Made by a program: the position numbers and the translations under genes. 64,000 nucleotides of DNA, from NCBI GenBank assembly GCA_019787685.1, contig JAHNUO010000036.1, forward strand, positions 186,001-250,000, read 5' to 3'. Position 1 is the first letter of the stretch. Each line of letters opens with the position of its first letter. This document shows positions 1,050 through 57,760 of the stretch, piece after piece. Source of the DNA: Chiua virens. Its lineage: Eukaryota > Basidiomycota > Agaricomycetes > Boletales > Boletaceae. The notes beneath the pieces were generated by a model. The model was not told the DNA's origin, searched no databases, and saw only the letters and a program-made list of their open reading frames with translations.

Positions 1050-4000
1050 TCAAAGCAGTGAGCGTGGTGGTTGAGGTGGTGGAAGGGCTGAAAGGTGGGA
1101 GACTGAGGGGAAATCCTTGGAGTGGAGACGTTTATAAGTGTCAATGGTTTCCTTGGCATTTCCTAGGTTGGCCTCAGGCTCCCAAGAGTCGTCGGAGGCG
1201 GAGTAGCCTTTCCAGCAGATCAGGAACTTGCAGTTGTGCATGTTCCAGGTGTGACGAAGGATCCATTCGATTTCATATTCCTCTTTGCCGGCTATAAGGT
1301 CCGGTGGGGGTTTTGGGAAATTGGGTCCATAGGTTTCCATTTCCCGATATGGGGAAAGGAGCGAAGCGTGGAAGACTGGGTGGATTTTCCAGGTCTTGGG
1401 AAGGCGGAGACGGTAGGTGAGCGGGGAGAGGACCTCCGTGATGGTAAAGGGTCCTTCATGGCGTGATGCGAGTTTCGGGGAGATGAGTTCCCGTTTCAAA
1501 TTGCAGGCTTCCAGCCAAACCTGATCGCCTTTTGAGAAGGGTTTGAACTTCCTAAAGGAGCGAGCTTTCATGGCTTGCCAGGCGAGTTCGTGTGCGGCGA
1601 GGGCTTCATCACGGGCAGCGGAGAGAGTTTTGAGGCGTTCCTCAATGGCGGGGAGTTTGGTTTCCGCAATGATAGCGGGTAAGGGACGGGGTTTGTAGCC
1701 CATCATGAGGAAGAATGGCGATTTGCCAGTGACGGAGTGGGGGCGGTGGTTGTGTGCGAATTCAGCCATAGGGAGTAAGTTGGCCCATTTCTCTGGATTG
1801 TTTTGACAATACATGTGGAGGTAGGTTTTGACTTCTTGATTGACGCGTTCCGTCTCACCATCGGATTGGGGATGGTAGGCGGTGGAGAGGGAGAGGCGGT
1901 ATCTGATGAGTCAGGAGAGCTCTTTCGCGAATGTGGAAGTGAACTGCGGACCACGGTCGGAAATGATCTTGTTGTAGAGGCCGAATCGTGTGTAGACTTT
2001 GTGAAAAAAGAGGCAGGCTATACCTGCAGAGTTGGCGGTTTTCACCGTGGGGCAAAGAATTACCCCCTTTGTAAGGCCATGGTCTACCACGACCATGAGA
2101 GAGTCATAGCCCTCCGCGGAGACGGGGAGATCCGTGATGAGATCAACGGATATGTTCTGGAACGGGCGGGTGCACGTGGAGGGAATCGGAGAGAGTGGAG
2201 GTGTGGTCGGATGTGTGTTGACCTTGTGCTGTTGACACGAGGCACAACCGGAGACATAGGAGCAGACGAAGGAAGCAAGGCCGGGCCACCAAAATTCGGC
2301 GGTGACCAGCTGGCGAGTTTTCAGAAAGCCAGGGTGTCCGGCGGTGTGGGAGTTGTGGTGGCGAGCAACAATTTGTTGCCAGAGTTCCCGGTTAGGCGGG
2401 ATGTAGATGCGACCTTGGTAGGTCAGGACACTGGCATCATAGTGCCAGTCAGAGAGGCGGGAGCAGAATGACGGTGGGAGGCCACCATCCATGGTGTTGA
2501 GGGTATCCAGGACAAGTGGATCCGCGGCTGAAGAGCGGGAGATCAGGTCCTGGAGATCTGTGGTAACGAGGTTGACAAAGATGTTGTCCGGAAGGAGTGT
2601 GACATCTTCGTTATCTGAGTCTGAGGTGATATGATCGGGACGGCGGGAGAGCGTGTCCGGACCGTCGAGGAGTTTGCCTGGCACGTGGGAGAACGTAAGG
2701 TCAAAGTCAGCAAGGTCGAGAAGCCAGCGGGCTTGACGACGGTTGAGGTTTTGGGGTTGTCGGAAGTAAGTGAGGTTTTTGTGATCCGAGAAGACGGTCA
2801 CAGGAGTAGCGCTACCATGAAGGTAGTGGCGCCAGGCTTTCAGGGATCTAATGATGGCGAGGAGTTTGCGGTCATAGATGTCGTAGTTCCTTTCCGCAGC
2901 ATTGAAGGACTGCGAAAGGTAAGAGCAAGGTTTCCAGTCGCCGTTTGAGTCGGTCTGGAGGAGGACACCACCCGAAGCAGATTTAGAAGCATCGGTGGCA
3001 ATAGCGAAGGGTCTAGAGGTATCCAGGAAATGAAGTACCGGATCAGAGGTAAATGCCTTTTTAAGGCATTCGAAGGCGGTGATCTGGGGTTTGTCCCAGA
3101 CCCAAGGTGCGTCTTTCTTGGTAAGATTGATGAGTGGGCGGGCTATGGTGGAGTAGTCCGGAATGAACTGGCAGTAGAAGTTGGCAAAGCCCATGAACGA
3201 CCAGACATCCTTGAGCTTGGTGGGAGTGGGCCAGTCGGCAATGCCAGCGACCTTGACTGGGTCCATGGCGAGCGATCATGCTGAGATATTCTACTTCAGT
3301 GGTGGCGAAGTGACATTTCTCAAGCTTGAGGTGAAGGTCGAGTTCCTTCACTCAAGCGAGAATGCGTTTGGTGCATTCGGTGTGCATAGCGTCATCCTCA
3401 GAGAAGATGAGGAGGTCATCCATGTAGATGACGAGCCACCCTTCGGCAATCATATCGTGGAAGGAGTCATTCATGAAGCATTGGAACATCGCGGGGGAGT
3501 TGGTCAGTCCGAAGAACATGACCGTGGGTTCGAAGAGACCGTGGTGTGTGATGAACATGGCTTTCCATTGGTGTCCATCCTTGATGTGGATGTTGTTGTA
3601 GCCCCATCAGACATCAAACTTGGTGAAAAGCTTGGCATCCTTCAGCTTATTGACGAGGTCGGAGATGAGAGGAAGGGGGTAGGCGTCACAAACAGTATGT
3701 TTGTTGATGTATCAGTAATCTTGGCAGGGACAGAGTTTACCATCCTTTTTCTTGACGAAGAAGAAGGGAGAGGCCTGAGGGGAGTTTGAAGGGCAGATCT
3801 TGCCTGAAGCAAGGTGTTCGTCGATAAAGTTGTCAGTGGCCTTGCGCTCGTCAGGGGACAAGGGGTAGACCTTTCTGACCTTGGGTTGGAAGGTGTCCTT
3901 TAAGTGGATCTCGTGATCGCAGGACCTAGAGGGGGGCATCTGAGTAGAGGGTTCCTTCGCAAATATGGATTCGAATTCCAAGTATTCCGAAGGGAGGGTG

Positions 4001-4725
4001 ACCTTGGCTTTGGTAGCCGTGGCTACGAGGGCGGTAGCGTTGGTGAGCTTCTCCGGTTGGGTGGTCCGAACGAAGCGTTGACCCACGTGCATGACGCGGT
4101 TCACAGAGTGTTGTACAGACTGGGTCGTATAACGGTGGCCAGTTTCTGTACCGAGGTAGTCAAAGATTTTGCCGTCCCAGATGGGGTTGACATCAATGTG
4201 GCAGGTCGGGATGACCGGCGGCGGGTGAGCGAGTTTGGCGGAGTGGCGAGGTTCATCATGAGTAATAGGGGGGAAGTCGGGTTCAGGAGCAGTGATAGTG
4301 ATGGTTTTGGTGACCCAATCGATGGTGGGGTTGGTCGCCTTGAGCCAGGGAAGGCCAAGGATAACGTTTTCAGAACCACAGTGGATGATGTGGAACTTCA
4401 CGTGTTGGAGTACTCCGCCAAGAGCAATCCGGAGGGTGGTGGTGAACTTGATGTCACCGTTTTTGTTTGAAGTGGAGTCCACGTTCTGAACCGGAATGGG
4501 TTTCGGAAGGCACTCCTTGGGAAACTTGTTCTTCTGGACGAAGTGCCAGTCGATACAGTTTATCCCGGCTCCGGAGTCGATGAGAGCGCGGGTGTCGACG
4601 TCTTTTGAGGTAGCAGTAGCATTCAGTCTAATGGGGATCTGCATAGATTGACATGCTAACTCAGCTACTAGTACATGGGTATGAGAATGGGAAGATACTG
4701 GCATCAAATCGGTCTTCTGTCTTAA
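1050..4725 (-). pseudogene. Ty3/gypsy chromovirus pol: protease, reverse transcriptase, RNase H, integrase, chromodomain (dead)
   Basis: Domains in order on the minus strand are as follows. Aspartic protease with ALIDSGAG near 4580. Reverse transcriptase with the catalytic YMDD box (VIYMDDLLIFSED, about 3430). RNase H (FAIATDAS, about 3000). Integrase with an HHCC zinc site (about 2390-2260) and the DDE core (SVDLITDL; IISDRGPQF). A C-terminal chromodomain (EYEIEWILRH...CWKGY...SWEPE, about 1290-1150). The frame is broken by in-frame TGA codons at 3712-3714, 3607-3609, 3352-3354 and 1911-1913. A small indel near 3270-3290 moves the reading frame just after the RT thumb (EYLSMI), before MDPVKVAG. 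The element cannot make an intact polyprotein. All four stops are TGA at places where arginine is plausible, consistent with CGA to TGA change. The chromodomain places it in the Tf/chromovirus branch, which targets chromatin marks. Confidence 0.9.
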
Positions 4726-16573: not shown

Positions 16574-19510
16574 CTGTGACAATATCTTGTCGATCGATTC
16601 GTTCATAAAATCCTTGCGTAACGTCAAGTCAGCTTTGGGAACTTGGCCATGATCGCTTCGCGTGCGGTCCTAGATGCGATAAGCATTGCGAACATGAATA
16701 GACAAAGAACAACTTACTTCTTCGTCACTGTCATCAAATCCTGCATACTCAGATAATTCCTCAATGCGTTGAACACATCTTCATCCGTCGGATTTGGGTT
16801 CATACTAGGTGCTGAATTGGCAGCAACCAATAGTAGCTTCCTTGGACAAGTAGGGGGTCGAACCACTAGGGCTCGCTGCTTTCTTGTCCCATTCCGACCC
16901 CCAACCATCCTTTGGGTCGTCAGTATATGCTGGTCTGCGGATATTCAGTGAGGGTAATCCGCTTACACAGTACGGCATCCGTTGGTTTGGGTCACGATAT
17001 CTCGACCCATGGCTACCCACACGAGCGGTGAGTAGATTATTGCGACTCGCGTTGTCGAACATGTCGTGTCCATGTGTGTCCGTGTGAGTATACTCCATTG
17101 CGTCGTCTCCAATGGCACTTTCATCGTCTTCGACAGCTTCGGCGGGGACCAAACGCCTCTGTTCCTTCTCAGCCACACGAACGGGATCTTCGACCACCTT
17201 CCATGCATTATACAACAACATAATCGGTGCCCTCCTTCCATCCGTTCGAAGCTGCGCATTGCCGGATACGCTCTGGGTCTGAACCACGCATTGTTGGTAC
17301 GTACCGTTCGCAAAACGCACGCTGCTGCAAGTCAATGACGAATTCCACACTGCGACGAGCAATGATTTCAGGGATGAGGAGTGATCATATCTTTGCCTTC
17401 ACACGGCGCTTATCGAATGAGTTGGGCGAGTTGGAATCGTTGGGGCGGATACAGGAGATAGTCCATAGCCGTGTGCGGTCAAATGAAACGAATATCTCGG
17501 AGAGGGCATAGTTGAATTGCGTGGAGACAGAGTATATCTTGGTGGAGTCCAAGGGTGGATGTTCTTCGTTGGGCATACGAGCTGAGCCGTCCGGGGATGC
17601 GATGGGTGTGACCTGACGAAGTGGGCGTGACGAGACTTGAGCTTGGACAATGGATATTTCATCTTCCGAGTGCTTCTCAGCGGCAAGTGAGGGACCAGAC
17701 ACCAACTTTGCTACGAACGGATCCAAAGAATGACGCAGCAGAGTGACAAATGCCGAGTCAAGGATGTCACTGTCCTTCTCGATGAAAGACGAAATATCGT
17801 ACGTGCAGCCTCCGCTATAGTGGTTGATACCAAACAAATTCCTGTCGTTCTCGCCTCCTTGACTAGGGCTCGCCACAAAGGATCCATGCACGCCATATCT
17901 AGACACGATATCTTCCACTTTTCCATCTCCCGCCTTTCCCGATCTGTAGGATGAGGATGCTTTGCTCAAGCTGCCAAGGATACCGCCAGGCTTGCGTGTC
18001 GCACGTTCACTAAGCTGGGAACCACGGAGGAGCTCAATGCAAGCCGAGTTATCCACGATAGCAATCGTTGGAAGGGAGATCCCATCACCAACGATGTGGC
18101 CGTTGTAACCAACGCTGTCCTCAAATATGTTGTGCAAGGCATACGATTGCACGAACTCGTCTGAGAAGTTGATGCAGAACTCATCAAACCCGTTTTGGCC
18201 GAGGGCGGAAATGAGCGGAGCAGTTCCCGCAACCATCATTGAGCCGGTACCCACGGGACCACGCGTCTGGAAACCAGGACAATCGAAGAGAATGAGCTGG
18301 GTGGTGGGAAGGGCGTCTCTATTTGGGGGAGCGATCTTGTGGTTGGCCGTTTCGACAACATATGCGAAAAGAATGGCGTAGAGATCACGCATAAGCGTAT
18401 CACGTTGGGCCGCACTCTGTTCGACGAACGTAGTTCGTCTTATTCGTCAAGGCCTGGCCAAGGTCATCCGCGGCGATGCCAAGGAGGCGTGTAACACGTT
18501 CAAGGATTGGAGCGTTGGAAACAGAGGCAGAGACATCCCTAGCATCGGCCTCTGTGAATTGGAGGTTGCTCAAGAGGAGAATAGCAACGAGGATTGAAAA
18601 ATTGGACGACAGATGCTTCGGCTTGTAACCGAGTGTGCGCATAGCAATGCGCACGTCCTCCATTGCGAAAGCGCCATCACTGAAAGGCCCACTGGGCGAA
18701 CGGTAACAACCAGAGGAGGCCAAGAGAGCATATTCGGAAGGGTCCTCGAGGTGGAAGTAGTCACGCTCCTGAGGTGCGGCCCCAGCCAAGAACTGGTAAA
18801 AGATGCGGTAAGTGCGTTCCTCGTGGGAGAGACGAGCGGGTCTAGACTTGTCTAACGCGAACGGGAGAACTTTGGCTGATTCGATGCGACCACGGTCGTG
18901 GAAATGAAGTTCGAGATAACGGTTGTGCCGGGAAGCATTTGGATTTGAAACGGTCTTTGCGTTTCCAAATGCATCGAGCAAGGTGTGAAGGGCTTTAACT
19001 TGACTCGCCATGCGAAGCTCTTTCTTGGAGTGGGAAGAGAGCCACAGCACCTGGTCTACGAGGAGACGTAGCGTGGATGTTTTTCCGGAGCCGGTGATAC
19101 CACTGGACACCAGAATATGAGAGAAAGGGAGGGATAACAGAGAAATTGACATACCGCGTAATGAGGGACTAGGACTGTCTCATGCGACGCATGAGGAGAT
19201 AAAACTGAGCGGCGAGTTCATAGGGATGAGGTTGAAGGAGGGACAACCCGGCAAGAGGGAGGCTGGTGTCCGAGTCTTTGTAACAGCGTTCTTCATCTTC
19301 TCTAGCATTGACATCGTTGATGTTTGTAAGGGATTTGATGGGGTTTACGACGAGGAGATGGGTTGTTCCAATTCTTGAGTATGGCAAATCAGAACGAAAG
19401 CGGGTGTCGAGGACGGCGTCGTCGGAGGGGTAGACAGTGGTGGAGTGTGAGGTGGATACGAGAGAAGGTTGTCGTTGTTGACGGCGTGGGCGGAGAGAGA
19501 GGCCATTTAG
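16574..19510 (-). pseudogene. Chitin synthase with myosin motor domain, 5' part only (pseudogene)
   Basis: Read on the minus strand, the start resembles SLRPRRQQRQPSLV (about 19495), followed by RIGTTHLLVVNPIKSL and then a myosin P-loop GITGSGKTST (about 19105-19075). Switch I is NPNASRHNRYLELHF (about 18940) and switch II DCPGFQTRG (about 18285). The motor end is LWTISCIRPNDSNSPNSF (about 17430), then a linker ending DEDVFNALRNYLSMQDLMTV (about 16770-16720), and TAREAIMAKF after an intron. These match the motor half of class V/VII fungal chitin synthases, which act at the plasma membrane in cell-wall synthesis. It is broken by a TAG near 19169, a frameshift near 18400-18430, a TGA at 17385-17387, and frameshifts near 17225 and 16805-16860. 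The transmembrane and catalytic QRRRW half is missing. It is a truncated dead copy; a functional gene must lie elsewhere. Confidence 0.88.
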
Positions 19511-19749
19511 AGGCCCGTAAATGAACGTGAAAGGAAAGAGGAAAAACGAGAATGCAGTTGTCAATTCCAGAGACAAGTCACGTAATACATAAACATCCAA
19601 ATAGGAAAGCTAATAGGCTGGCAGATCGCTCATTCACTGCGCATCTATCATTATACCAAGTCTCCGGGAAAGAAAGTAGGATAAGTTGCACAGACCATAA
19701 GAACTTGTCCAGTAAATCAGAGAATGAACTACAAAGTGCTAGTCCAAGT

Positions 19750-22396: not shown

Positions 22397-22462
22397 CTGT
22401 AAGGGAAAACATAAGGGCGAATAAGTGGACAGATGGGCCAGCGAAACGCTGCCCATGGCCGC

Positions 22463-25400
22463 CACTCAATACTCAGGGCCAGGTTCCCTAGGCGGGATAA
22501 CGGCAAGCGGCGGGACCGCACGCACGCGAGGTGCGCACGTCGGGCGGACCCTTGAGGCCGTGGTTGCGCCTTTCCAGCGCCAGCTCCTGTGGTAAGTGCT
22601 CGAAAGCACATCTTTCGGGTCTCCTAGACTATGGTTCAAAATATGGATTACATCTGGATTAGCCATATGTACGGTACAATAAGAGAACACGAGCTAAAAT
22701 GTATACGGTCATCATAAACAAAAAGCAAATTTTTTAAAAAGGCATCCAAACACCGGATGAAAAAGGTCAGTATCGCAGCTGTCGCCGTCGGCGGTCCAGA
22801 AATGCCGGCTGGTAGCGTGAAGCTGGTCTTGGCAGCAAGGCAGGAACAAAGTGTCGTAGACGCGACTGTAGACGAAGCATCGACAGGTAGGCTCTGTTTA
22901 AGTGCTCGATAGAGTTCGAGGAAAGCACTGCACCATTTATGCACACGTATCGTCGTGATCTGTGAAACATGGCAAAGGTTAGGATCGAGTATGGGCCGGG
23001 AGACAAACCTCTTTTGTCCTTAGGACGCAATCGTATACTACCCTCCGACGTGCCTGACTTGTGCGCTGTGATCAGTAGCGCAAAAACGCATTGAGAAGAT
23101 GACGTACCGACGTATGCACCGCCTGCTCTCGCCTACATCCTCCCGAACCAAATGTCGCGCGAGAACTCGCACAGCGGGCCATGCAGTCAACTGGAATTTG
23201 GCGGGATGCACTCCCATCAGGTTCCTGCAAGTATCCAGGTCAACGAGGTTCAGGTCGTGAAGATGTGGGACGTACATCGCAGAGTTGGTCGTAAAGACAG
23301 GATTCCGAGGTCGATCTTGTCTACCAGTAAACCCGTTGTGTTGTGAAAAGGGTGGATTGTCGGGTTGCTGTCACGGTTGTAACAAAGAGACGAAGAGACG
23401 TCACAAATCGGCAACGTCACTATAACAAACAAGTGGCTGTGTTGCACAGGTGGATCCGTGGCATAAATGACAAGCCAAGCCGTTTGTACAAGTCATACCA
23501 AATCATACATATACATATACCTCGGCTCAAACAACGTAAAATCTGTCCTTGTATAACTCAAAGTTGCCAAATCCCATGCATTGGCCCCACCCTCCTGCCG
23601 CAACCACAAACTCCAAATTGTCTGAGCCATGCGAGACATCGTTCATTGCCGCATGTAATGCTGAGTCCAAGCGATGGACCGAACGGAAGGGCCTGAGATA
23701 CTCTACGACACCGATCCACATTCAGAACACAGGTGTCGTATTAAGGGAGGTGATTCAAGTTGAACGGTTAGATCGAGGAATACAACAGTCCACCATGGCG
23801 AGGAGAGAGGGATGAGAATTGCAAGGTGCAGACTGTCCGCATGTCCAGCTTCCACTGATGGTGAACCGATCAAGGATGGCCTCGGTGAGAAAGACGGTCG
23901 TCTTTCCACCTTCCTCGTCTTGTTTGAGACCAAAGACTTTCGCCCGCACGGCGTAAATGCGCTGTCAGACTGTCGTGATCTCTGACGAGCATGGGTGTGA
24001 ACAACTCGGTGGCACTGGAGGCATACATGTTGATTTGGACCCGAGACCCGCGTAGACATGCCATTGGTTGGCGTAGGCCCGAAGCATGGTGTTGACCTTG
24101 ACAGTTTCGATACTCTGATGTAATGGCCATACTATCGTGAGACATAAGTATGTGTCGGTTGCAAAGGGAGAAACGTACGTCAGGAATGCGGCACGAGTGA
24201 CTGCTCGAATATCGGCGGTGACGATACCGTGTTCCTCGTAACCGAGGTACATGTAGCGTGACTTGAAGTACCTGAAGATGTTTTCCACGGGCCGTACGGA
24301 CTGATCTGGGGCACGGCGATTACCTAGTTTCAAATACGAATGGCCGGCCGGAGAAATGGGTCGGACCGTGGAAGGAGCGTATCGAAACGACATGAGGGCC
24401 TGTTGGGAGATGTTCCTCAAAGGCAGCGTTTTTGGGAGCCTTGACAAAGTTTTGATCAGAGACGAGCAAAAAGAACAACGGTCTGTCAATATGATGCAAT
24501 AAACAGAATGGAAGGTAGACATACCGAGAGTTGTGGAATTGTCTGTCTATGCCAGAGGTAAACAACGTCAGCTCGGTGAAACGATATCCACCTTCTTGCA
24601 TGGGTGGGGACATGGGGGCTGGTAATAGCAACGGTGCCCCTTGGGACTAGTTCGCGTATCAACCAGGCTGAAGGACCTGAGGAGTGATTGGGTTGGGCGT
24701 GGGGACAGATGACGAAGGCGGTTGCTACGTTACCTGAGTACTTGATTCCCAAGACTTGGTTGGCTTTGAAGCGTCCTTGGGACCTCGTTCACTGCTACTC
24801 CAATGTCTCCGCCATTCCTCGGGCCGCTTGCCCCAACTCCCAAAAAAAACCCGGCGGTATCTTGTCCTTCAAAGGGATTATGGGGGTTTCTCGCCAACCG
24901 AACTGTGTTGCTCCTGCCTAACGTGTTGCTCCTCGACAGGTTCAACGCAAGGGCTGGTGATACGTTCGCAGGATTTGGGACTGATTGCCACCGTCGCGAG
25001 GCAAGGATCGCGGGTGTGTCAGGGCGAACGGCAGTGCCGACTTGAAGAGTGGGTCTTGGCATGCTCGAGAGCAATACGGCGTGCTATGATCTGGTCTGCG
25101 CATAAATGTGCAAGGTAAGGATTTACGGAAATGCATAGATAAATGAACGACAAACGAGGTGCGGGCACGGTTGCGCTTCTGGCCAGCGTTTTGCTCATCC
25201 TCTTTATTCCCCGGATCAGAAGCTTGTTGCACTCTCTTTACGCCTGTGAAATCCGTGAATGCATCGTTGGAGTCGTTCGCTGCGACCTGTTTCTATCGTG
25301 ATGTAGGTAAGCAAGCTAAGCATGGGTAAGACGACAGAAAGAAACTGACAGTTTTCCAAGGTAATCTTTACTCTTGGAATTCTTGATTTTGTTTTCCGAC

Positions 25401-26304
25401 GGACGATAGAGCACACCAACGGGCTGAGTGATGTTGGATAGGATGAACAACACTGAAGACAGTGTATCCCTCCCCACGCTCTCAGTGTAAACAGGGTTTC
25501 AGCGGAGAATAGTTTGAACTTGAGGCCGATTTGAGCATAGTTGCTAGAGAGGCAATCAGCCCGAGTGCAGGAGTGTGACGGGAACGAACATGGCCTCATT
25601 CCCACGTAGGAACAAGATATAAATCTTGAAAGACCGTGCTGAGGTTGCGAATGGAAATTTTCCCGTCCTTTCGCCCTGTTGCGAGATGGGAACCATCCGA
25701 GGAGAAAGCAATTGAGTGTCTCTCAGTCTTGTTCCCCTCCGTGACGATGGGTCCAACGACAGTGAGTGGTTGTATCCAAGAAAGAGATCGAGTAGCTGAA
25801 GGTGTGCGCAACAACGAAGCCCATTGAAATTTGGCCTGGCTTGAAGCTGGACGTCAACCCCCAAACTCCAAGAACCTATCAAGGTTACCTGATTGGCACA
25901 ACTTGAAGGAGGCAGCGAAGGCGCTAGAAGCACAAGTCATTCAATGTCACGGATCACAAGAGACTTACATACCGCTATGTAAGAACAGGCACAAGGCGAA
26001 ACTGAAATTGGAACAATTATGAGTCAAGACGCAGTACTCAGTACTCAACACTGCGGAGAAGTGCGTCGGGATGACCAATTAGTCAAACTTTGAGTCGTAC
26101 GCATTATGTTTTACCGAGTCTGTACCCGCCTTCCTCTCTTTTGCGTTGACGGCCATTTCGTTGTGGAGAGCCAGACCTGCTGTTAATCACGTCAATTCAA
26201 CGGACTTGTGTTTCGCGTGACATTATCACGTTAGGAAACGAGCCAAACAGTAGTGCAATGAAATGTGAAGCGACCGGGAGAACGACCCGAGATGAGATAC
26301 AATA
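22463..26304. repeat. Left arm of a giant inverted repeat (3,842 bp)
   Basis: Reverse-complement identical to 29446-33287, with base x pairing to 55750 minus x along the whole length, so there is no net indel. The only difference seen is A at 22834 against C at 32916 (in the same orientation T versus C). Outer end: CACTCAATACTCAGG. Inner end: GATACAATA. Confidence 0.97.
25596..25814 (-). pseudogene. WD40-repeat-like coding remnant (left arm copy)
   Basis: One WD40-type blade is readable: TVVGPIVTEGN, SIAFSSDGSHLATGRKDGKI. The frame is open for 72 codons and then stops. Neighbouring frames carry no continuation I can recognise. WD40 blades form protein-binding propellers, and NACHT-WD40 genes are common in mushrooms. 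It is an isolated fragment, so probably dead. Confidence 0.45.
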
Positions 26305-27584
26305 ATATGCAAGTAAAAAAAAATTCGCCCTCACCCTGAGTCTATGATGATGTTCGGGGCGGCGACAGAACACTCATCTGGCGAATCATGGTCGGGCATG
26401 GTGAGATATTCGGCCCGAATACCAAGGATCTCACCCGGCGCTCACGTAGAAAATGTGCACTCTTGATCATGCGTTCAAATAGCTCCCGGTCACTGCATTC
26501 AATAGTCTATCTGTCCCAGGGTGCGTATCAGCCAATGGTAATGGAAACAAATGAAGGGAGAGGGGGCTCGCCACCCTGCATGCACAGAAGACTTACGCGC
26601 TAACATGAACCATCCGCCTACTCCCCGTTGTGCCGCCTTTGCACGCTGCATCATCAGCGCTGAGCTCAGGTAACGACGTCCACGTCCAATAGAATCGCAC
26701 GCAGTGACTACTGTTGTAAGGAGCCCCACAGAGAGCACACGTCCAAGGCGATAGAACTAGAATCGGCAGAACAAACGATGGTACCCTTTTGCAAAGTCAG
26801 CACGGAAGTGAGAAGAGCGCGATTTATCAACATACAAGTGAACTCGAATCCATACTGCGACAGCACTCTATGCGAACGCTATCTCTGCGCTCAAGATGCG
26901 TGTGGCCACTCGACGTCCAGTCTGAATCTTCAAGGGAAGACTGACGTTGAATGCGTCGCGCCAGCCTCGAGAAAGAGTCAAAGTACTCACCTCTCTGCAG
27001 AATATCCTGCACGTCGTTGAGCTAGTCAACCTCCGTCGGATTCTGTGGGACTCATCACAGATATCGGTCGCTAGTCGTGGGAAATATGTATGATTGTTGT
27101 CCGACAGACTTAAGATGCTGTTACAACCATTTACAGCGCTTTGCATAAGTATTGGCTCTCGCGACTTGGAAAAACATAACACAACAACGAGGGACTTAGT
27201 CGAATTTCTACCACTGTGCTTGTACTAGTACCATAGATCTGTAATCGTTGCTCGACGTACAGTTGACCATGTACAAGACAACCTTGAGGCAGGCTTTTCA
27301 GAAGAATGGTGTGTGTCAACGTTCCTGATGACCGGTTGCCGTGCTACACACCTGTCCAGTGCAAGAATCATTATCATCGATCAATCATTTACCAGGCACT
27401 CAGGCCTCAGGACTGGCAAATCTTGCTTTTTTCAGAACAAGGCGGCGTTGTACTTGGGGAGTAAGTAATGACAGCAGATGAGAGCGAAGACCCTCGATTG
27501 GATCCACAGACAGAAACAATCGTGATTATACTGATACGACAACAGGCTCAGGAGCCTAAATGTAACCAACAATACGCAGCGTTA
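26305..27584. other. Left part of the palindrome spacer, no gene recognised
   Basis: Short frames on both strands (for example 26868-27182 minus, 26778-27020 plus) show no recognisable motif and overlap each other. A run of nine A bases lies at about 26316-26324, close to the arm boundary. Confidence 0.5.
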
Positions 27585-28910
27585 TTACGCAAAATCGCCC
27601 ACTTCTTCCGAGTCGTCTTGATTCTCCTCGATATCGAGAAAGATACGAACGTGAGGCGGAAATGAGACCGACCAAAGAACGAGAGCCACCGTCGTAGCAT
27701 CCACGTCCTTCAGCGTCAAAGTTCGAAGCTGGTCACACGCTCCGCAAAGCGCCGAGCATGTCGCGAGCAGGGCCATCGCGTCAACACGGTTCAGACAGAG
27801 CGACGTCAAAGCGCGCAAGTGATTAAAAACACTGCGGATCGATGTCGTCTCTGCATAGAGGCATCGCAGAGTAAGCTCATCAAGCCGAGACAGCGATACC
27901 TGATCCGTCGCGTTCATGTCCACGAGGTGGTCCAGCAGCAACGAACGGTCTCGGGGTTCACTCGGCTGGATCCCAAATACCACGTCTTCAATGGAGAGGA
28001 CGCGAAGACTGGGCAGGACGAACAGAGATAGGAGGTTGATGGCGTACGTCACATCGATGAAACCGATCTCGAGTTCCTCCAATCGTGGCAAATCGATTGT
28101 GTGCGGGTCGTCACGACCGGGAATACCATCTCCATCCATTCGGGGACCCCAGCCGACGATAACGAGGCGCTCGAGCCCTGGGCTTGCGCACAACATGCTC
28201 CGGAAATCGGAAAGAGTGGGCATGACATCCTGCGCATGGTACCTCAACTCCAGCTCTCGAAGATCCGTAAGACCGCACCCAATCGATGTGGACACCAGAA
28301 AGCGATACGTGGCAGAGATGGGTGAGACTGGCATCGCCCCGAAACCAGGCGATGGGGGTGGCGAGACGTGCTGGGCGAAACAACTCTCCTTGTGCAATCA
28401 AGTACTCGTTGCATCTTGCAAGACGATGGTTTGCAGGAGAGGCACTGAGTCGATGGCCACAGTGGATGAGAGGAACGTGAAAATGGGAGCCCAAGTGTCA
28501 GTGAGAAGTTCAATGAACTTCCAACGCAACGCTTGAGGTACGAGAAGGCGCATGATGATCTCCATGTCCTTGCTGCCAAAGACATGCGGTGCTTCGTCCC
28601 AGTCCCAGGATGGATCGCGAAAGTCCATATGGATATTGAGGAGACGGTCGCAGGAACGGATCAAGCAAGTTACCGTACGCGTAAGTTGGCTCTTGGAGAG
28701 TGGAAGCGAAAGGACGATGGAAGTCCATAGGGAAGGCATTGAGAGGGATATCTGCCTCCATTTTGTGGATACATGGGAGATGGAAATCGACGAAGAAATG
28801 GGGTCGGAGGATGAATGGGTTGCGAAACCGAATATATCTGAGATGATTTCGATCGGGATTGAGCGAGCAGGAAAGGTGCGACTCCAATGATGTGGGTAGA
28901 ACCATGGTCA
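27585..28910 (-). pseudogene. F-box/LRR protein (pseudogene with two compensating frame changes)
   Basis: An F-box is readable on the minus strand near 28865-28740: IPIEIISDIFGFA, HVSTKWRQISLSMPSLWTSI. Leucine-rich segments follow: LTDLRELELRYHAQDVMPTL (about 28270), GLERLVIVGW, LPRLEELEIGFIDV, LPSLRVLSIEDVVFG, LSRLDELTLRC. The stop is at 27585. F-box proteins recruit substrates to SCF ubiquitin ligases, and large families occur in mushrooms. The expected text runs in one frame to about 28420, then in another frame (RCNEYLIAQGEL, HVSLSGVHIDW, about 28425-28290), then back again. So two small indels or unrecognised splicing events are needed. The start codon is uncertain. Confidence 0.7.
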
Positions 28911-29264
28911 AAGAAAGTAATTCCTTGTCGTGTGACCGTAACACGTTGTAACGGCACCATCTGACAAAGGGAACCAAGGTAAGTCAGTAATTTCATTTTA
29001 GAGTGCAAAATAACAGTACCATGAGCTAGAGCAGCTGAGGTTGAAGTCGAGAGAATTTGGGTTGTTTGTTGAAGCGAAGACCATAACGGGAGATCAGTCT
29101 TTTATATTGCGCCATTACCCGTCGTCGATGACAGCACTTGTTGTCGCAAAGGGTAAATGTACCAACAGAAAGCCTCGAGGAAATTTTTCAGAATCACCGC
29201 GTGTGTCCCACGCGACCGGGAAACCGGAAGGATAGACTGTGATAAATGAGCAGTTCAATAGATA

Positions 29265-29445
29265 CAGTAGACTCTGTAATAACCCATACGTGATTTAACC
29301 CTCTATGATAACCCATACCTTTTGGCTATCCCATTTTCAAGTTGCAGGGCATAACACCTCTCTCAGAACCCATACTCTGCTGTAAGCCTGTAACCCATAC
29401 TTTTATGGCTATCCCGAACAACATGGGTTATGACAGAGTCTACTG
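29265..29445. mobile_element. 181-bp MITE with pogo/Tc1-like inverted ends and TA flanks
   Basis: Ends are CAGTAGACTCTGTAATAACC and, inverted, CAGTAGACTCTGTCATAACC. It is flanked by TA at 29263-29264 and 29446-29447. The interior has repeated ATAACCCATAC and TTTTGGCTATCCC and no coding capacity. The TIR start CAGTnGACTCT is shared with the larger element at 38280-39179, which suggests it is mobilised by the same transposase class. Confidence 0.88.
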
Positions 29446-29935
29446 TATTGTATCTCATCTCGGGTCGTTCTCCCGGTCGCTTCACATTTCATTGCACTAC
29501 TGTTTGGCTCGTTTCCTAACGTGATAATGTCACGCGAAACACAAGTCCGTTGAATTGACGTGATTAACAGCAGGTCTGGCTCTCCACAACGAAATGGCCG
29601 TCAACGCAAAAGAGAGGAAGGCGGGTACAGACTCGGTAAAACATAATGCGTACGACTCAAAGTTTGACTAATTGGTCATCCCGACGCACTTCTCCGCAGT
29701 GTTGAGTACTGAGTACTGCGTCTTGACTCATAATTGTTCCAATTTCAGTTTCGCCTTGTGCCTGTTCTTACATAGCGGTATGTAAGTCTCTTGTGATCCG
29801 TGACATTGAATGACTTGTGCTTCTAGCGCCTTCGCTGCCTCCTTCAAGTTGTGCCAATCAGGTAACCTTGATAGGTTCTTGGAGTTTGGGGGTTGACGTC
29901 CAGCTTCAAGCCAGGCCAAATTTCAATGGGCTTCG

Positions 29936-30154
29936 TTGTTGCGCACACCTTCAGCTACTCGATCTCTTTCTTGGATACAACCACTCACTGTCGTTGGACC
30001 CATCGTCACGGAGGGGAACAAGACTGAGAGACACTCAATTGCTTTCTCCTCGGATGGTTCCCATCTCGCAACAGGGCGAAAGGACGGGAAAATTTCCATT
30101 CGCAACCTCAGCACGGTCTTTCAAGATTTATATCTTGTTCCTACGTGGGAATGA
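29936..30154 (+). pseudogene. WD40-repeat-like coding remnant (right arm copy)
   Basis: Identical mirror copy of the fragment at 25596-25814, on the opposite strand because it lies in the other arm. Same single blade and same stop. Confidence 0.45.
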
Positions 30155-30675
30155 GGCCATGTTCGTTCCCGTCACACTCCTGCACTCGGGCTGATTGCCT
30201 CTCTAGCAACTATGCTCAAATCGGCCTCAAGTTCAAACTATTCTCCGCTGAAACCCTGTTTACACTGAGAGCGTGGGGAGGGATACACTGTCTTCAGTGT
30301 TGTTCATCCTATCCAACATCACTCAGCCCGTTGGTGTGCTCTATCGTCCGTCGGAAAACAAAATCAAGAATTCCAAGAGTAAAGATTACCTTGGAAAACT
30401 GTCAGTTTCTTTCTGTCGTCTTACCCATGCTTAGCTTGCTTACCTACATCACGATAGAAACAGGTCGCAGCGAACGACTCCAACGATGCATTCACGGATT
30501 TCACAGGCGTAAAGAGAGTGCAACAAGCTTCTGATCCGGGGAATAAAGAGGATGAGCAAAACGCTGGCCAGAAGCGCAACCGTGCCCGCACCTCGTTTGT
30601 CGTTCATTTATCTATGCATTTCCGTAAATCCTTACCTTGCACATTTATGCGCAGACCAGATCATAGCACGCCGTA

Positions 30676-31995
30676 TTGCTCTCGAGCATGCCAAGACCCA
30701 CTCTTCAAGTCGGCACTGCCGTTCGCCCTGACACACCCGCGATCCTTGCCTCGCGACGGTGGCAATCAGTCCCAAATCCTGCGAACGTATCACCAGCCCT
30801 TGCGTTGAACCTGTCGAGGAGCAACACGTTAGGCAGGAGCAACACAGTTCGGTTGGCGAGAAACCCCCATAATCCCTTTGAAGGACAAGATACCGCCGGG
30901 TTTTTTTTGGGAGTTGGGGCAAGCGGCCCGAGGAATGGCGGAGACATTGGAGTAGCAGTGAACGAGGTCCCAAGGACGCTTCAAAGCCAACCAAGTCTTG
31001 GGAATCAAGTACTCAGGTAACGTAGCAACCGCCTTCGTCATCTGTCCCCACGCCCAACCCAATCACTCCTCAGGTCCTTCAGCCTGGTTGATACGCGAAC
31101 TAGTCCCAAGGGGCACCGTTGCTATTACCAGCCCCCATGTCCCCACCCATGCAAGAAGGTGGATATCGTTTCACCGAGCTGACGTTGTTTACCTCTGGCA
31201 TAGACAGACAATTCCACAACTCTCGGTATGTCTACCTTCCATTCTGTTTATTGCATCATATTGACAGACCGTTGTTCTTTTTGCTCGTCTCTGATCAAAA
31301 CTTTGTCAAGGCTCCCAAAAACGCTGCCTTTGAGGAACATCTCCCAACAGGCCCTCATGTCGTTTCGATACGCTCCTTCCACGGTCCGACCCATTTCTCC
31401 GGCCGGCCATTCGTATTTGAAACTAGGTAATCGCCGTGCCCCAGATCAGTCCGTACGGCCCGTGGAAAACATCTTCAGGTACTTCAAGTCACGCTACATG
31501 TACCTCGGTTACGAGGAACACGGTATCGTCACCGCCGATATTCGAGCAGTCACTCGTGCCGCATTCCTGACGTACGTTTCTCCCTTTGCAACCGACACAT
31601 ACTTATGTCTCACGATAGTATGGCCATTACATCAGAGTATCGAAACTGTCAAGGTCAACACCATGCTTCGGGCCTACGCCAACCAATGGCATGTCTACGC
31701 GGGTCTCGGGTCCAAATCAACATGTATGCCTCCAGTGCCACCGAGTTGTTCACACCCATGCTCGTCAGAGATCACGACAGTCTGACAGCGCATTTACGCC
31801 GTGCGGGCGAAAGTCTTTGGTCTCAAACAAGACGAGGAAGGTGGAAAGACGACCGTCTTTCTCACCGAGGCCATCCTTGATCGGTTCACCATCAGTGGAA
31901 GCTGGACATGCGGACAGTCTGCACCTTGCAATTCTCATCCCTCTCTCCTCGCCATGGTGGACTGTTGTATTCCTCGATCTAACCGTTCAACTTGA
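30676..31995 (+). pseudogene. Unrecognised coding remnant in the right arm (mirror at 23755-25074 minus)
   Basis: Several overlapping plus-strand frames have protein-like text: ALNLSRSNTLGRSNTVRLA (about 30800), YRFTELTLFTSGIDRQFHNS (about 31150-31225), FFLLVSDQNFVKAPKNAAFE (about 31280), YFKSRYMYLGYEEHGIVTAD (about 31480). Possible introns (GTATGT at about 31225, TTGACAG at about 31268) could join some of them. I could not name a family. Frame changes suggest either several introns or decay. The left arm carries the same sequence on the minus strand at 55750 minus each coordinate. Confidence 0.35.
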
Positions 31996-32472
31996 ATCAC
32001 CTCCCTTAATACGACACCTGTGTTCTGAATGTGGATCGGTGTCGTAGAGTATCTCAGGCCCTTCCGTTCGGTCCATCGCTTGGACTCAGCATTACATGCG
32101 GCAATGAACGATGTCTCGCATGGCTCAGACAATTTGGAGTTTGTGGTTGCGGCAGGAGGGTGGGGCCAATGCATGGGATTTGGCAACTTTGAGTTATACA
32201 AGGACAGATTTTACGTTGTTTGAGCCGAGGTATATGTATATGTATGATTTGGTATGACTTGTACAAACGGCTTGGCTTGTCATTTATGCCACGGATCCAC
32301 CTGTGCAACACAGCCACTTGTTTGTTATAGTGACGTTGCCGATTTGTGACGTCTCTTCGTCTCTTTGTTACAACCGTGACAGCAACCCGACAATCCACCC
32401 TTTTCACAACACAACGGGTTTACTGGTAGACAAGATCGACCTCGGAATCCTGTCTTTACGACCAACTCTGCG

Positions 32473-32712
32473 ATGTACGTCCCACATCTTCACGACCTGA
32501 ACCTCGTTGACCTGGATACTTGCAGGAACCTGATGGGAGTGCATCCCGCCAAATTCCAGTTGACTGCATGGCCCGCTGTGCGAGTTCTCGCGCGACATTT
32601 GGTTCGGGAGGATGTAGGCGAGAGCAGGCGGTGCATACGTCGGTACGTCATCTTCTCAATGCGTTTTTGCGCTACTGATCACAGCGCACAAGTCAGGCAC
32701 GTCGGAGGGTAG
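32473..32712 (+). pseudogene. Possible LRR/F-box-type fragment in the right arm (mirror at 23038-23277 minus)
   Basis: The start reads MYVPHLHDLNLVDLDTC, similar in style to leucine-rich strands (VPHLxxLxLVDLD) of basidiomycete F-box proteins. Only one strand-like motif is visible, so this is weak. A true F-box/LRR pseudogene sits in the palindrome spacer. Confidence 0.25.
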
Positions 32713-33287
32713 TATACGATTGCGTCCTAAGGACAAAAGAGGTTTGTCTCCCGGCCCATACTCGATCCTAACCTTTGCCATGTTTCACAGATCACGACGA
32801 TACGTGTGCATAAATGGTGCAGTGCTTTCCTCGAACTCTATCGAGCACTTAAACAGAGCCTACCTGTCGATGCTTCGTCTACAGTCGCGTCTACGACACT
32901 TTGTTCCTGCCTTGCCGCCAAGACCAGCTTCACGCTACCAGCCGGCATTTCTGGACCGCCGACGGCGACAGCTGCGATACTGACCTTTTTCATCCGGTGT
33001 TTGGATGCCTTTTTAAAAAATTTGCTTTTTGTTTATGATGACCGTATACATTTTAGCTCGTGTTCTCTTATTGTACCGTACATATGGCTAATCCAGATGT
33101 AATCCATATTTTGAACCATAGTCTAGGAGACCCGAAAGATGTGCTTTCGAGCACTTACCACAGGAGCTGGCGCTGGAAAGGCGCAACCACGGCCTCAAGG
33201 GTCCGCCCGACGTGCGCACCTCGCGTGCGTGCGGTCCCGCCGCTTGCCGTTATCCCGCCTAGGGAACCTGGCCCTGAGTATTGAGTG

Positions 33288-33755
33288 TGTTGAGATCAAT
33301 CTGAGACAAATGTATAAGCCACACTCGACTGAGTAGTCAGGCAATATAATCACCTCACTAATCAGAGGGGCTACGCTAATAAATACAGTAGAACAGTATA
33401 TAAGACCAGCTACTACATCTAGAAGGAAGATAAGGCTTGAGTCCTGATTCCCCCCATCTTATCATGTCCGATTTAAGTGATACTTTTTCGCGCTTATCGT
33501 GCTGCAACAGAGTGGCGGCCGGGCAGCATTCTGGACCTTTGTACTAAATACAAAACAAACACGCGGTGCTGCGGCAGAGACATCAGACGCTTGGAATCTT
33601 GACGGGAGAAAAATGATATACTATGGGCATAAAATACAGTTTGTGTCTACGGAGGGGGCCTGAGGCAGCGCCATGGGGTTAGGGGGCTCGGACGCAGTCT
33701 GAGACGGCGAATATTGGGAATAGGACGACTTGACGACGCCGCGAAGGGCGGACAG
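33288..33755. other. Flank of the right palindrome arm, nothing recognised
   Basis: No coding frame or repeat is supported here. The sequence beyond the arm end is unrelated to the sequence flanking the left arm. Confidence 0.5.
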
Positions 33756-34679
33756 TCAGGGAGAGGGGGACGAGGGTATTGCTGTAATGGTCAGGTACCT
33801 CCCCAGCCTCCTGCGCAAAGGATGCCTATCGCGGACACCGACAGCAGATAAAACAGCTGTCAGATCCATCATAAGACCCCATTTCTCCTCAGGCTTTATA
33901 CCCTGCAATTGTAAAGTTTCTTGAACCCCGCGCACTAGTCGACTCTTGGGATGAGAACTGTCTCCAATGGGTGTACATTTCATCCCTTCCGTTGCAGCAG
34001 CAGCCATCAAAGGGTCAATAAACTCCGTTCGGAACCTTCGGAGCGCCAACACCCCCAAAGGAACAACACGATCCAGCGTAGTCGCTGCTTGCGCTCATTG
34101 TTCTGCTGGAGGGCCCCACTTCAACGGCAGCTCCTTCATGTTCCTTCCCTTCAACGTCTTTGTAGACTCCTCATTCCCCTCCTCGACAGGCCTGCCAATA
34201 CCAGAACCCTCGACGGCCCGGTTGACATAGGTTCTGTTGACGTAGTCGAGGAGTCGACTAACGGCATGCGCGCCAATGCTATAGCGCTTAAAGCAGGAGA
34301 TGACATATTGCACAAGCGTTAAGCTAGTCTTGGGGGCACCCAACAACAACTCCCCAGTACGGTCAGCGTAGTACTTGTCGAGGCGATCGTAGAGGTCTTT
34401 CCCGCTCATATGCTTGGGGGCAGGACCAGTGGCCGTGGACTGTGAGATAAGGTAGCGGTAGGTGGCATCATGTATACCCATATGGTATGAAGGTTCGATG
34501 GCAGGTGCTTTGCTAGAGTTGGTCGGGGAACAGACAATATGATCAAGAGCTGGTAGGATGTAGCCCCAGAGGGCGGCGAGTGACACGGAGGGGTCGGCAC
34601 CTCCTGCAGAAGGACATGCCAGCATCAGGCGCGACGCCATGGACGGTACTGTCTGGTTTCCGTTGTTGCTGGATATCAT
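33756..34679 (-). pseudogene. Cullin-like N-terminal fragment
   Basis: A minus-strand frame starting MISSNNGNQTVPS (34679) carries helical-repeat text of the cullin N-terminal domain: GYILPALDHIV, GKDLYDRLDKYYADR, YVISCFKRYSIGAHAVSRLL, DYVNRTYVNRA. After a TGA (34095-34097) the same frame continues with LALRRFRTEFIDPL. Cullins are the scaffold of RING ubiquitin ligases. The C-terminal cullin-homology domain that binds the RING subunit is absent. The TGA falls where CGA is plausible. It is a truncated and probably dead copy. Assignment is by pattern of helices, not by search. Confidence 0.62.
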
Positions 34680-35117
34680 AGTGGTTAGGTTCTAAAGTAA
34701 CAAATGTGCTATTGATAGTCTATTATACAGTTTTTGCACGAGGCAAACCGATACTTAGCCGAAACTCAGTGACTTTGTCCGACGACTCCGACAACGCCTG
34801 AACACGACCCCAACTTGAAGAAAGCGAAGAAAACACCATGAGAAGGAAGCAGACATGTGCAGTCCAGCCATCGTTGCAATTTTTATGATGGATCCATGTT
34901 CAACGGACCTTGAACTTGTTGATATCTGCGTATTTCGTTGGCCACGCTCGCCGATCCTTACGCTACCGCGGCCTTCAACTTGAAGATTGCTATCGCTGCA
35001 GTGACAAGTAACTGACAGCTGCACTCAGACGCGATATTGGCTCATAGGGCCAAAGGAGGGTCCCCGGGTTCAAGCGTTCATCATTCCGCTATCACACTCC
35101 TCTCAACCCTATCCTAT

Positions 35118-36228
35118 AGGTGGTCCTTATCCACGGCCTTTCCATTCTAGCCATTGTCTGGAAGGACGTGGCACCTGTCCTTGCTTCACACGGTTATAGC
35201 GTCCTGCTTTACAGTACTATTCCTTATCGTGCCGCATCCCTTGGCTTGACAAATTCTCCCAGATCTTTATAGTCGCGGTCTGACATCACCTACGATGCTC
35301 TCTTCACACGACCCAGCTCGCCCTCCTCATGCGGCATATCAGATGGGATGATGCATATGTTATTGGTGTTTCCATGGTACGTATGAGGTCGAGTCTTGGT
35401 TCTCTGGCACTGAGTGCGACCTGTCGTTCCTCAGGGTGGTGGTATCGCCGCCGCGTTTGCAGTCCAATTCCCTCACTTGGTCAATGGCAAGGTCGCGCTC
35501 GTTGCATCCGCTGGCATAATTGAGGTACGCTCCCTCCGTCATTCCTGCGCCTTCATATTTCTGATGTTCCTGGCAGTCAGCTGACATTTCACGTACTGCA
35601 AATTCATGTCGTCACCGTTGATACAAAGTGTATCATCACTTCCTCCATTCAAGGTTTGAATCAGTCTTCGTCATATTGGCCAGTGACGTCTCACGATCAG
35701 TAGCACTACATCCATCTACTCGTCAATGGTTCAAGCACGTCTGAGCTTGAGACCATCGTTCCCATCCAAGAGGTAAGAGCGCTCTACAAATACTGGCACC
35801 GCTCATTCCCGATCAGATCGTTCGATTACAATCTGCCCATCTCCCACATGATAATGCTGCTGTCGCGTCCTCTCTCCGAGATGGTCCAGTTCGCGGCCTT
35901 GCACATGCCTTTAGTGCGATTTCCGATTCCTCGAACGAAATCTTCATCATCCATGTACGTTCTATCACGCCAACATAGTTCGTCTGAGTCATCTCACACT
36001 GACATCTTATAGAGCACGGCAGACAAGACTGTCCAGTATAAATATGCTTCTAAGATCCAAGCTCTCGTTCCCCGAGCCATGCTAGTCACTATTATAGATG
36101 GTGGCCACGATATCACAGTCACCCATGCCAAAGATGTGAACGCCGCACTTCTCCATTTTCTCTCAGGAGTCTTCCGGTTGATATCTCATCCAGATCGCCG
36201 TAAAAGATGTTTTGCCTGGAAATTATAA
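35118..36228 (+). pseudogene. Alpha/beta-hydrolase with introns (pseudogene)
   Basis: Plus-strand exons of an alpha/beta-hydrolase are readable: VVLIHGLSILAIVWKDVAPV (about 35120), a block containing ALLMRHIRWDDAYVIGVSM (about 35310-35375), then after an intron GGGIAAAFAVQFPHL (about 35437), VRLQSAHLPHDNAAVASSL (about 35822), IFIIHSTADKTVQYKYAS and TIIDGGHDITVTHAKDV (to about 36140). The nucleophile elbow G-V-S-M-G is split by the intron. The acid (TAD) and catalytic His (GGHD) are present. One frame break and a stop lie near 35270-35310, and the middle exon (about 35590-35700) is unclear. It probably encoded a small esterase or lipase-like enzyme. Confidence 0.68.
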
Positions 36229-36800
36229 GTATCAATGCGCAGGATACCGGTGTCTGTCGCAAACAATCCCTTGGATACCATCCTCAGTCTCATCTAATCC
36301 TAGTACTTCTTGGGCTCATACATCGTACTTTCATGTATTCAGTTGTCGTCGCTTTCTACTGTCTTAGTAATGGACAATGTTGTAGCTTTGTTTGTTGAAC
36401 GCGTTACACTAAGAAACACTGAGCTTGTTCCTTCACATTTACGCGCGGAAGAATATGAACCAGCAACAAGAAGGTGCAATTTCCACTTCAACTGGCGAAG
36501 CTACATCAATGAACGCAACGAGAACATTTGCTTTGTTTCAGCCGTATGCGTGGTCCAAGTTCTTAGGTTATGAGTGCTCTTTGCTGGTACCCTAGGGTGC
36601 ATTTAGAACCCCATCCTAGGGTTTAATAGATCCTAGAATAGGGTTTGGTAATAAATCTATGTTCTATAAAAGGCCTTGAGTATAGTAAACTGGGTAGTAC
36701 TCAGACTGTATTGACTCTCTCTGTGTATAGTGATGTGATTGTAAGTAAGAGTGCTGTGAAGAACAGTAGAAAAACAGTAAAGATGACAATTGCCACAGAC
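36229..36800. other. Intergenic, no gene recognised
   Basis: It contains three imperfect CCTAGGGTTT-type strings near 36587-36645, which are too few and too irregular to be telomeric repeats. No coding support. Confidence 0.5.
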
Positions 36801-36864: not shown

Positions 36865-37735
36865 AGATACCAGCCTGCCGTCCTGGAAGGAGAGCAGCAC
36901 ACATGTCTGCATAGGACATGACACTGATCATGGACATGTAACACAAGCTCTCCTTCCTGGAAGGAGAGCAGCACACATGTCTGCATAGGACATGACATTG
37001 ATCATGGATATGTACCACAAGCTCTCCTTCCTGGAAGGAGAGCAGTATACATGTCTGCATAGGACATGACACTGATCATGGACATGCAATGTGAGCTCTC
37101 CTTCCTGGAAGGAGAGCAGCACACATGTCTGCATAGGACATGAATTGATCATGGACATGTACCACAAGCTCTCCTTCCTGGAAGGAGAGCAGCACACATG
37201 TCTGCATAGGACATGACACTGATCATGGACATGCAATGCGAGCTCTCCTTCCTGGAAGGAGAGCAGCACACATGTCTGCATAGGACATGACATTGATCAC
37301 GGACATGTACCACAAGCTCTCCTTCCTGGAAGGAGAGCAGCACACATGTCTGCATAGGACATGACACTGATCATGGACATGCAGTGCAAGCTCTCCTTCC
37401 TGGAAGGAGAGGAGTATACATGTCTGCATAGGACATGACACTGATCATGGACATGCAATGCGAGCTCTCCTTCCTGGAAGGAGAGCAGCACACATGTCTG
37501 CATAGGACATGACAATGATCACAGATATGTAATGCGAGCTCTCCTTCCTGGATGGAGAGCACACATCCGTGGGGATTGTCACGTGCCATGCTTGATATGT
37601 GTGCTGCCCTCCGTCCAGGACGGCGGGCTGGCATGTCCGTGGGGATTGTCACGTGCCATGCTTGATGTGCGTGCTGCCCTCCGTCCAGGACGGCGGGCTG
37701 GCATGTCTGTGATGATTGTCACATGCCATGCTTGA
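36865..37735. repeat. Minisatellite, unit about 74 bp, built on a hairpin CTCCTTCCTGGAAGGAG
   Basis: About nine tandem units of 71-74 bp at about 36950-37560, each with the palindrome CTCCTTCCTGGAAGGAG followed by AGCAGCACACATGTCTGC and ATAGGACATGACACTGATCA. To the right the unit changes to a GC-rich form with CCGTCCAGGACGGCGGGC (37609 and 37678). Because 74 is not a multiple of three, all minus frames stay open for 70-120 codons; these are not genes. The hairpin is of the same type as in the arrays at 40.4, 44.0, 47.5, 51.7 and 52.1 kb. Confidence 0.93.
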
Positions 37736-56215: not shown

Positions 56216-57760
56216 GTTGAAGATGGAGCTGGTGTCAACATGTGTGTTCATTACTACAATCATTAAATTCTTGGTTTTTCATCTTACTTATGCTATGTCT
56301 TTAATTACTTATGTTTACTTATTTGTTATCAATCTTCCTCTTATCTTTAAGTATATAAATTTTAAATACTTTATCTTGTAATCTTAGGTCTGACTATTGT
56401 TTTTCTTGTGGGTTAGTATTGCAGTTACCAATTTCTCATTTTTATCTTTGTACTTATCCCATTCATTTTCTACAAGGTTCAAACCTCTAATCTGCAAATT
56501 CAACAAAGCCCTAAAAATAAGGATATACCACATCAGTTGAAGCCGAATATTCCAATCCCTTTGACTAACTTTGACAACTTCTAACATTCTTTTAGTTGAC
56601 TTTCCCCCTTGACATAACTTTAAAACATATACATATTACAGGTCTTCACAATTTAAATAAATGTGTGATTTATTAATGCGTTGTCTATAATTTCATATTT
56701 TTAATACTACAGCTCTATTGTCAAACTTCTGTATGTATGAGTTTTTAAAGAAATGTTGATGATACTATCTAGATATTTTCTATCAAGGAGACAATTAATC
56801 TTATAACACATTAGAGTCAAAAATATACTAATTTCAGTAGAAATTACCTACATGGGACACAAGTCTTGTACAATGCAAGTTAGTAAACCTTGTTCTAAAT
56901 AAACTACAATATATGGTATAAGATGATATATTATATGACAATAATGGCTATCTGTACAATGATTTCACCATGCATGATTTCAAAAATAGCTTCAAGTGTT
57001 GTATGAAACAATGTTTTTTGAAAAGTTTAAACCTTCCTGCTTAATTTTGGTGCACAATCAACTGATATTGATCATAAGATACATAAATAAGAAAACATTA
57101 TATGTTTCAAACAAAATATTTTTACATTTTAAAATGGCAAAGAAATCCAACAATAAAACATCTTGCCTATAATTGTAATGCTTATTATTGCCAATGGTTG
57201 TTGAGTTTGTTGTTTTATCCCTATCAAAAACCTATAAAACATGCATTTCTAGACTTATCTGGATTCCTAGATAGTTTATACATTACCAAGTTTGATGTCA
57301 AGAAATTATAAGAAATCAACTTGTTCATTGTCACCATGCCCACTTTTGTATTATAAGATCATTGACTTATCATCAAATATCAAATCTAAAACAAGCCAGA
57401 AGAATGGCATACAATGAATAAACAAATAGCTCTGAGACATAGATGATATCTAGAAATAACTCATGTATATGAAATATGTCAATCCAAATCATAGATTAAT
57501 GTCACATGAATTTATATTGAACCAAATGCCATTCACACAAGATGACCCAAATGAGATCAAATTTCTTCAGATATGTATGAACTGATTAACTGAGGAGAAA
57601 CATTAACAGCTATGCATACTGTAACTCAATTAGAGTAATAATGCACTGCACAATCTACTCCAAAACAAAAAATGAACCTACAGATGGATGTAATGGTCAC
57701 CATGCAGTATAAACATTGGCACAATGAGTGATAACAACTCTAAAGCTCTCTGTGCTATAG
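56216..57760. other. AT-rich region, no gene recognised
   Basis: Low GC; the frames 56172-56381, 56384-56587 and 57102-57311 have no motif and show no intron or codon pattern. It may be old repeat material. Confidence 0.5.

Follow-up and report, generated by a model that had tools for sequence, protein, structure and literature searches.

Transposable-element boundaries of a near-identical inverted repeat in Chiua virens

Arms, spacer and surroundings

We found that a near-perfect inverted repeat in Chiua virens is bounded in its right copy by two transposable elements: the identical stretch runs outwards exactly up to a solo LTR and inwards exactly up to a MITE-like element. We regard it as moderately probable, judging from sequence comparison, that the repeat is an older inverted duplication whose arms have lately been made identical by gene conversion. 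The repeat lies in a stretch of 64,000 bases (hereafter the window), which is C36:186001-250000 on a contig of 262,969 bases; the assembly searched comprises 48.3 Mb in 136 contigs.

Direct alignment of the left arm (22463-26304, + strand) with the reverse complement of the right arm (29446-33287, - strand) gave 3,842 columns with one mismatch and no indels, and the identity ends at both arm limits. A repeat finder returned the identical arm pair around a spacer of 3,141 bp (26305-29445, +). The first-pass annotation had given just these arm and spacer lengths, no indels and a single difference at 22834 against 32916, and the alignment confirmed this description to the base. Chance is excluded as the origin of the match because of its length, and inverted arms of such high identity around a spacer have the form of a palindrome. 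At the sole mismatch the left arm carries A (22834, +) and the right arm, read in the same direction, carries G. Since a paralogue on C1 (64%) also has G here, the left arm probably carries the newer base, though the indication is weak.

Among the own-genome matches listed, these two were the only near-identical copies of the arm; the next-best match was 74% alike over part of the arm, and the other relatives (69-74%) likewise covered parts of it. The matches listed for the spacer contained no other near-identical copy. In Pfam, one reading frame of the arm matched WD40 weakly, its 21.5 bits falling short of the cut-off (27), and the spacer holds diverged LRR/F-box-like reading frames (LRR_At5g56370, 20.1 bits, also below the cut-off of 27), with the MITE-like element at its right end. 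The G+C content is 0.506 and 0.507 in the arms and 0.502 in the spacer, and with arm values so close to that of the spacer there is no sign of G+C-biased conversion. A paralogue on C15 (70%) aligns across the left inner junction (window 26118-26402) and ends at the right inner junction. Because this paralogue crosses the left junction only, and because the left outer site lacks the LTR, we take the left arm as the probable original and the right one as its inverted copy.

To the right of the repeat lies a cullin-like fragment (34095-34679, -; its Pfam Cullin score of 23.7 bits misses the cut-off of 33.2). Farther out on both sides, window segments 17029-19540 (92%) and 34989-36562 (84%) have relatives on C2 that are colinear with them in reversed orientation and stand about 20 kb apart. 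Of the interval between these relatives, 2,562 bases (L081) were read; they gave no match to the window, and the arm search listed none in that part of C2. The left of these segments overlaps myosin-motor reading frames (17385-19152; Pfam Myosin_head), whose DNA relatives, 72-92% alike, occur at several places on C2, C14, C79, C53, C63 and C5. For the frame at 18400-19152, the closest named proteins come from mushroom-forming fungi, headed by Pleurotus djamor with 68% identity, and metagenome relatives are named chitin synthase. A repeat begins at 36563; among the matches listed, 11 other places share its first 438 bases with 97-100% identity. Four of these 11 lie less than 5 kb from a contig end, and the place on C136 is at 2423. 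Within this repeat is a 74-bp minisatellite (36881-37565). Elsewhere in the window are broken LTR retrotransposon frames with RNase H, integrase zinc-binding, aspartyl protease and chromodomain profiles (1050-4707) and a long tandem array with periods of 50, 178 and 228 bp (54128-56221). An exact (TTAGGG)4 telomere repeat, which might have pointed to a subtelomeric location, is absent from the assembly.

Limits of the right copy and the stub beyond

The two elements that bound the right arm to the base, and a diverged stub past the LTR, are additions to the first-pass annotation. Directly after the right arm, at 33288, begins a repeat family whose alignment delimits a solo LTR of 222 bp here (33288-33509, +; TGTTG...CAACA). 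Reading the sequence on both sides of it revealed a perfect 5-bp target duplication, GAGTG, of which the left copy (33283-33287, +) makes up the final five bases of the right arm and the right copy lies at 33510-33514 (+). The 11 closest aligned relatives also start with TGTTG and end with CAACA, and 9 of them are, by eye, flanked by a 5-bp direct duplication of their own, although two of those nine (L069 and L070) sit in near-identical contig stretches. The element thus has the TG...CA ends, the several copies and the 5-bp target duplication of a solo LTR. The alignment took in 13 of the 18 other loci that match past the arm, leaving out L075 and L077-L080 with their partial or neighbouring matches. 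A majority sequence was built from 11 of the 13, and L074, which is more distant, served as outgroup. Each of the 11 relatives departs from the majority at 0 to 7 columns, whereas the window LTR departs from it at 31 of 218 columns, 24 of these being transitions. Polarised with L074, private changes of the window LTR number 10 in 137 columns, some of which it may have carried before it inserted.

At the inner end, the final base of a 181-bp MITE-like element (29265-29445, +), with terminal inverted repeats CAGTAGACTCTGT, directly precedes the right arm. A TA stands to its left (29263-29264, +), and the partner TA is formed by the first two arm bases (29446-29447). TA precedes all 17 of the 17 ends found at 12 related loci; among the matches of the element, the longest is 78% alike and the best short one 86%. 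Short length, terminal inverted repeats, a TA duplication and dispersed copies are all present, as in MITEs, and the TA target presumably fits Tc1/mariner-like elements. Homology to the left side beyond the MITE-like element was sought and was not found. The exact boundary at this element suggests that the right copy may have begun from a break at the MITE end.

Beyond the LTR and its target duplication, a short stub (33515-33545, +) resembles the sequence just outside the left arm (22424-22462, -). No LTR lies between the left arm and this counterpart, and the left outer site is the unoccupied form of the insertion site. The alignment of stub and counterpart spans 39 columns with 28 matches, 3 mismatches and 8 gap columns in 4 gaps. 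With 3 substitutions in 31 positions and 4 gaps, the stub is far more diverged than the arms, which show 1 in 3,842 and 0 gaps (Fisher p 1.8e-6 for the substitutions). Its anchored extension score of 30 was reached by 0 of 1,500 shuffles, at 4 of 127,698 window positions once the left flank itself was excluded (the stub itself and three at one other site), and at 1 of 226,160 positions in other loci, taken in steps of two with 13 C36 loci excluded. Unanchored, the stub is weaker, its score being reached by 2 of 5,000 shuffles and by 35 of 25,514 window 60-mers. A comparison of 400-base stretches scored 38, which is unexceptional beside shuffles that averaged 34.2 and peaked at 56, and farther out than the stub no homology was found (208 of 300 shuffles scored as high).

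The stub is likely a leftover piece of the same duplication as the arms. Since it resembles the left flank on the far side of the LTR, the right copy would predate the LTR insertion, and if stub and arms do stem from one duplication, the arms would have been homogenised since. The diverged stub, over its 39 columns, and the diverged LTR, whose age is indirect, both point to a repeat older than the identity of its arms. In the history that we favour, a copy of the left locus would have been placed in inverted orientation beside the cullin-like fragment; breakage where the MITE ends may have come first. An LTR retrotransposon would then have entered the right copy and shrunk to a solo LTR, and the stub past it, short and cut off from the arm, would have gone on diverging. 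Finally, recombination between the arms would have copied one onto the other, in either direction, and halted at both heterologies. Insertions present in only one arm hinder pairing, and on that ground the limits of the conversion tract would be fixed at the LTR and the MITE-like element.

As a tentative extension, we propose that two unrelated transposon insertions act as firebreaks, setting to the base the limits of a conversion tract in a fungal inverted duplication; that the tract keeps decayed DNA identical while the duplication diverges just outside it; and that such self-correcting mirror repeats recur in this genome. Were this right, the locus would hold its own clock and control, namely a converted core and an unconverted remnant split by insertions, and the reach of conversion in a natural fungal genome, and its stopping by transposon insertions, would become askable. 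It would also serve as a warning that near-identical duplicates are not necessarily young.

Competing explanations

The first-pass annotation had offered recent duplication, gene conversion and misassembly without choosing among them; the two elements and the stub now tip the balance towards conversion of an older repeat and away from a simple recent duplication. The latter is the main rival. By this account template switching produced the right arm as a fresh copy of the left, joined at a pre-existing MITE end and, via GAGTG, at a pre-existing LTR, with no homogenisation at all. The near-zero divergence of the arms speaks for it, as does the position of both junctions at repeat ends, where breaks can start, and GAGTG could act as a 5-bp microhomology. 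However, the stub past the LTR would then have to be a product of chance or of error-prone synthesis at the junction, and the arm-like sequence around the LTR and its GAGTG pair looks as though the insertion had followed the copying. We therefore consider a simple recent duplication somewhat unlikely, though a serious contender.

Two other mirror-symmetric pairs with different breakpoints bear on this question, as they suggest that inverted duplications arise repeatedly in this genome. A cullin-profile search gave matches that group, by eye, into about eleven places, and two exact mirror pairs stand among these, one on C8 (1592381-1594140, +, against 1594794-1596553, -) and one on C7 (837146-839115, +, against 842101-844070, -), the members of each pair having equal profile scores. 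In the C8 pair the central 300 bp do not form a palindrome (pairing at 62 of 299 comparable positions), and so this pair also has a spacer. The same centre piece is listed once at C8 and in both C7 arms, 98% alike; its single occurrence in the one and double occurrence in the other mean that the breakpoints differ. The two pairs probably arose separately, and one old inverted duplication common to both was rejected on the strength of those breakpoints. If inverted duplication is frequent in this genome, as these pairs suggest it may be, the odds of a recent origin for the 3,842-bp repeat would rise. Mirror pairs are not universal, however: inspection of coordinates and scores by eye showed none among 133 kinase matches (125 of 388 candidates scored) or among 7 P450 matches (92 of 300 candidates scored).

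An assembly artefact, with a single arm entered at both places or a collapsed consensus of two diverged copies used for both, appears improbable. Repeat ends, such as those of LTRs and MITEs, are often sites of assembly errors, and an LTR and a MITE-like element do stand at the arm ends. Near-identical segments also occur on different contigs (99.94% over 3,213 bp, 98.9% over 3,413 bp and 99.85% over 4,011 bp), which suggests retained haplotypes or recent segmental duplications; the pairs concerned, at 98.9-99.94%, are L069/L070, L004/L005 and L020/L021. Against an artefact stand the unique spacer of 3,141 bp, the LTR target duplication and the stub, the one real base at which the arms differ, and the outer markers that are colinear with C2; moreover, copies as diverged as the stub would hardly collapse. 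The misassembly option of the first-pass annotation is made unlikely in its fold-back form by the LTR and MITE-like boundaries together with the stub. A fold-back read fits poorly with a unique spacer, with the LTR target duplication and with the stub. The other haplotype joined in inverted orientation is likewise disfavoured, as likeness to the left flank lasts for only 39 columns past the LTR and both outer markers are colinear with C2.

Last, long inverted termini enclosing a spacer could suggest one large transposon with 3.8-kb terminal inverted repeats, but this is very improbable and was set aside: the arms are not flanked by a target duplication (GCCGC precedes the left arm and the LTR's TGTTG follows the right one), Pfam showed no transposase profile in the two spacer frames submitted, the genome matches listed held no second full copy, and the left inner edge continues into the spacer in the C15 paralogue.

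Comparison with known systems

Inverted duplication by template switching at microhomology yields an original arm, a spacer and an inverted copy. The fungal repeat shares this layout, but its diverged stub and LTR suggest that the copy is not fresh, unlike that of a template-switch duplication.

A gene-converted history has closer counterparts in sex-chromosome palindromes. According to one report, the arms of palindromes on the willow W chromosome are kept alike by arm-to-arm gene conversion, as are those of human Y palindromes cited there, and LTR insertions specific to one arm argue that a willow palindrome is older than its identity suggests (PMC7023750). The fungal repeat resembles these palindromes in having near-identical inverted arms, a spacer and an LTR in one arm only (PMC7023750). 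It differs from them in being much shorter, with 3.8-kb arms and no clear gene, in lying on a contig that is not known as a sex or mating-type region, and in that two transposable elements delimit the tract to the base (PMC7023750). Recombination between engineered inverted repeats has been studied in budding yeast; those repeats are experimental, whereas the one described here is natural and its recombination event is inferred (PMC8748988). Among the titles and abstract openings of the literature searched, we found no description of a nuclear inverted repeat in a fungus whose conversion tract stops at inserted transposons. The gene-converted inverted repeat is a known kind of structure, and what is unusual here is the sharpness of the limits, which transposons may have set.
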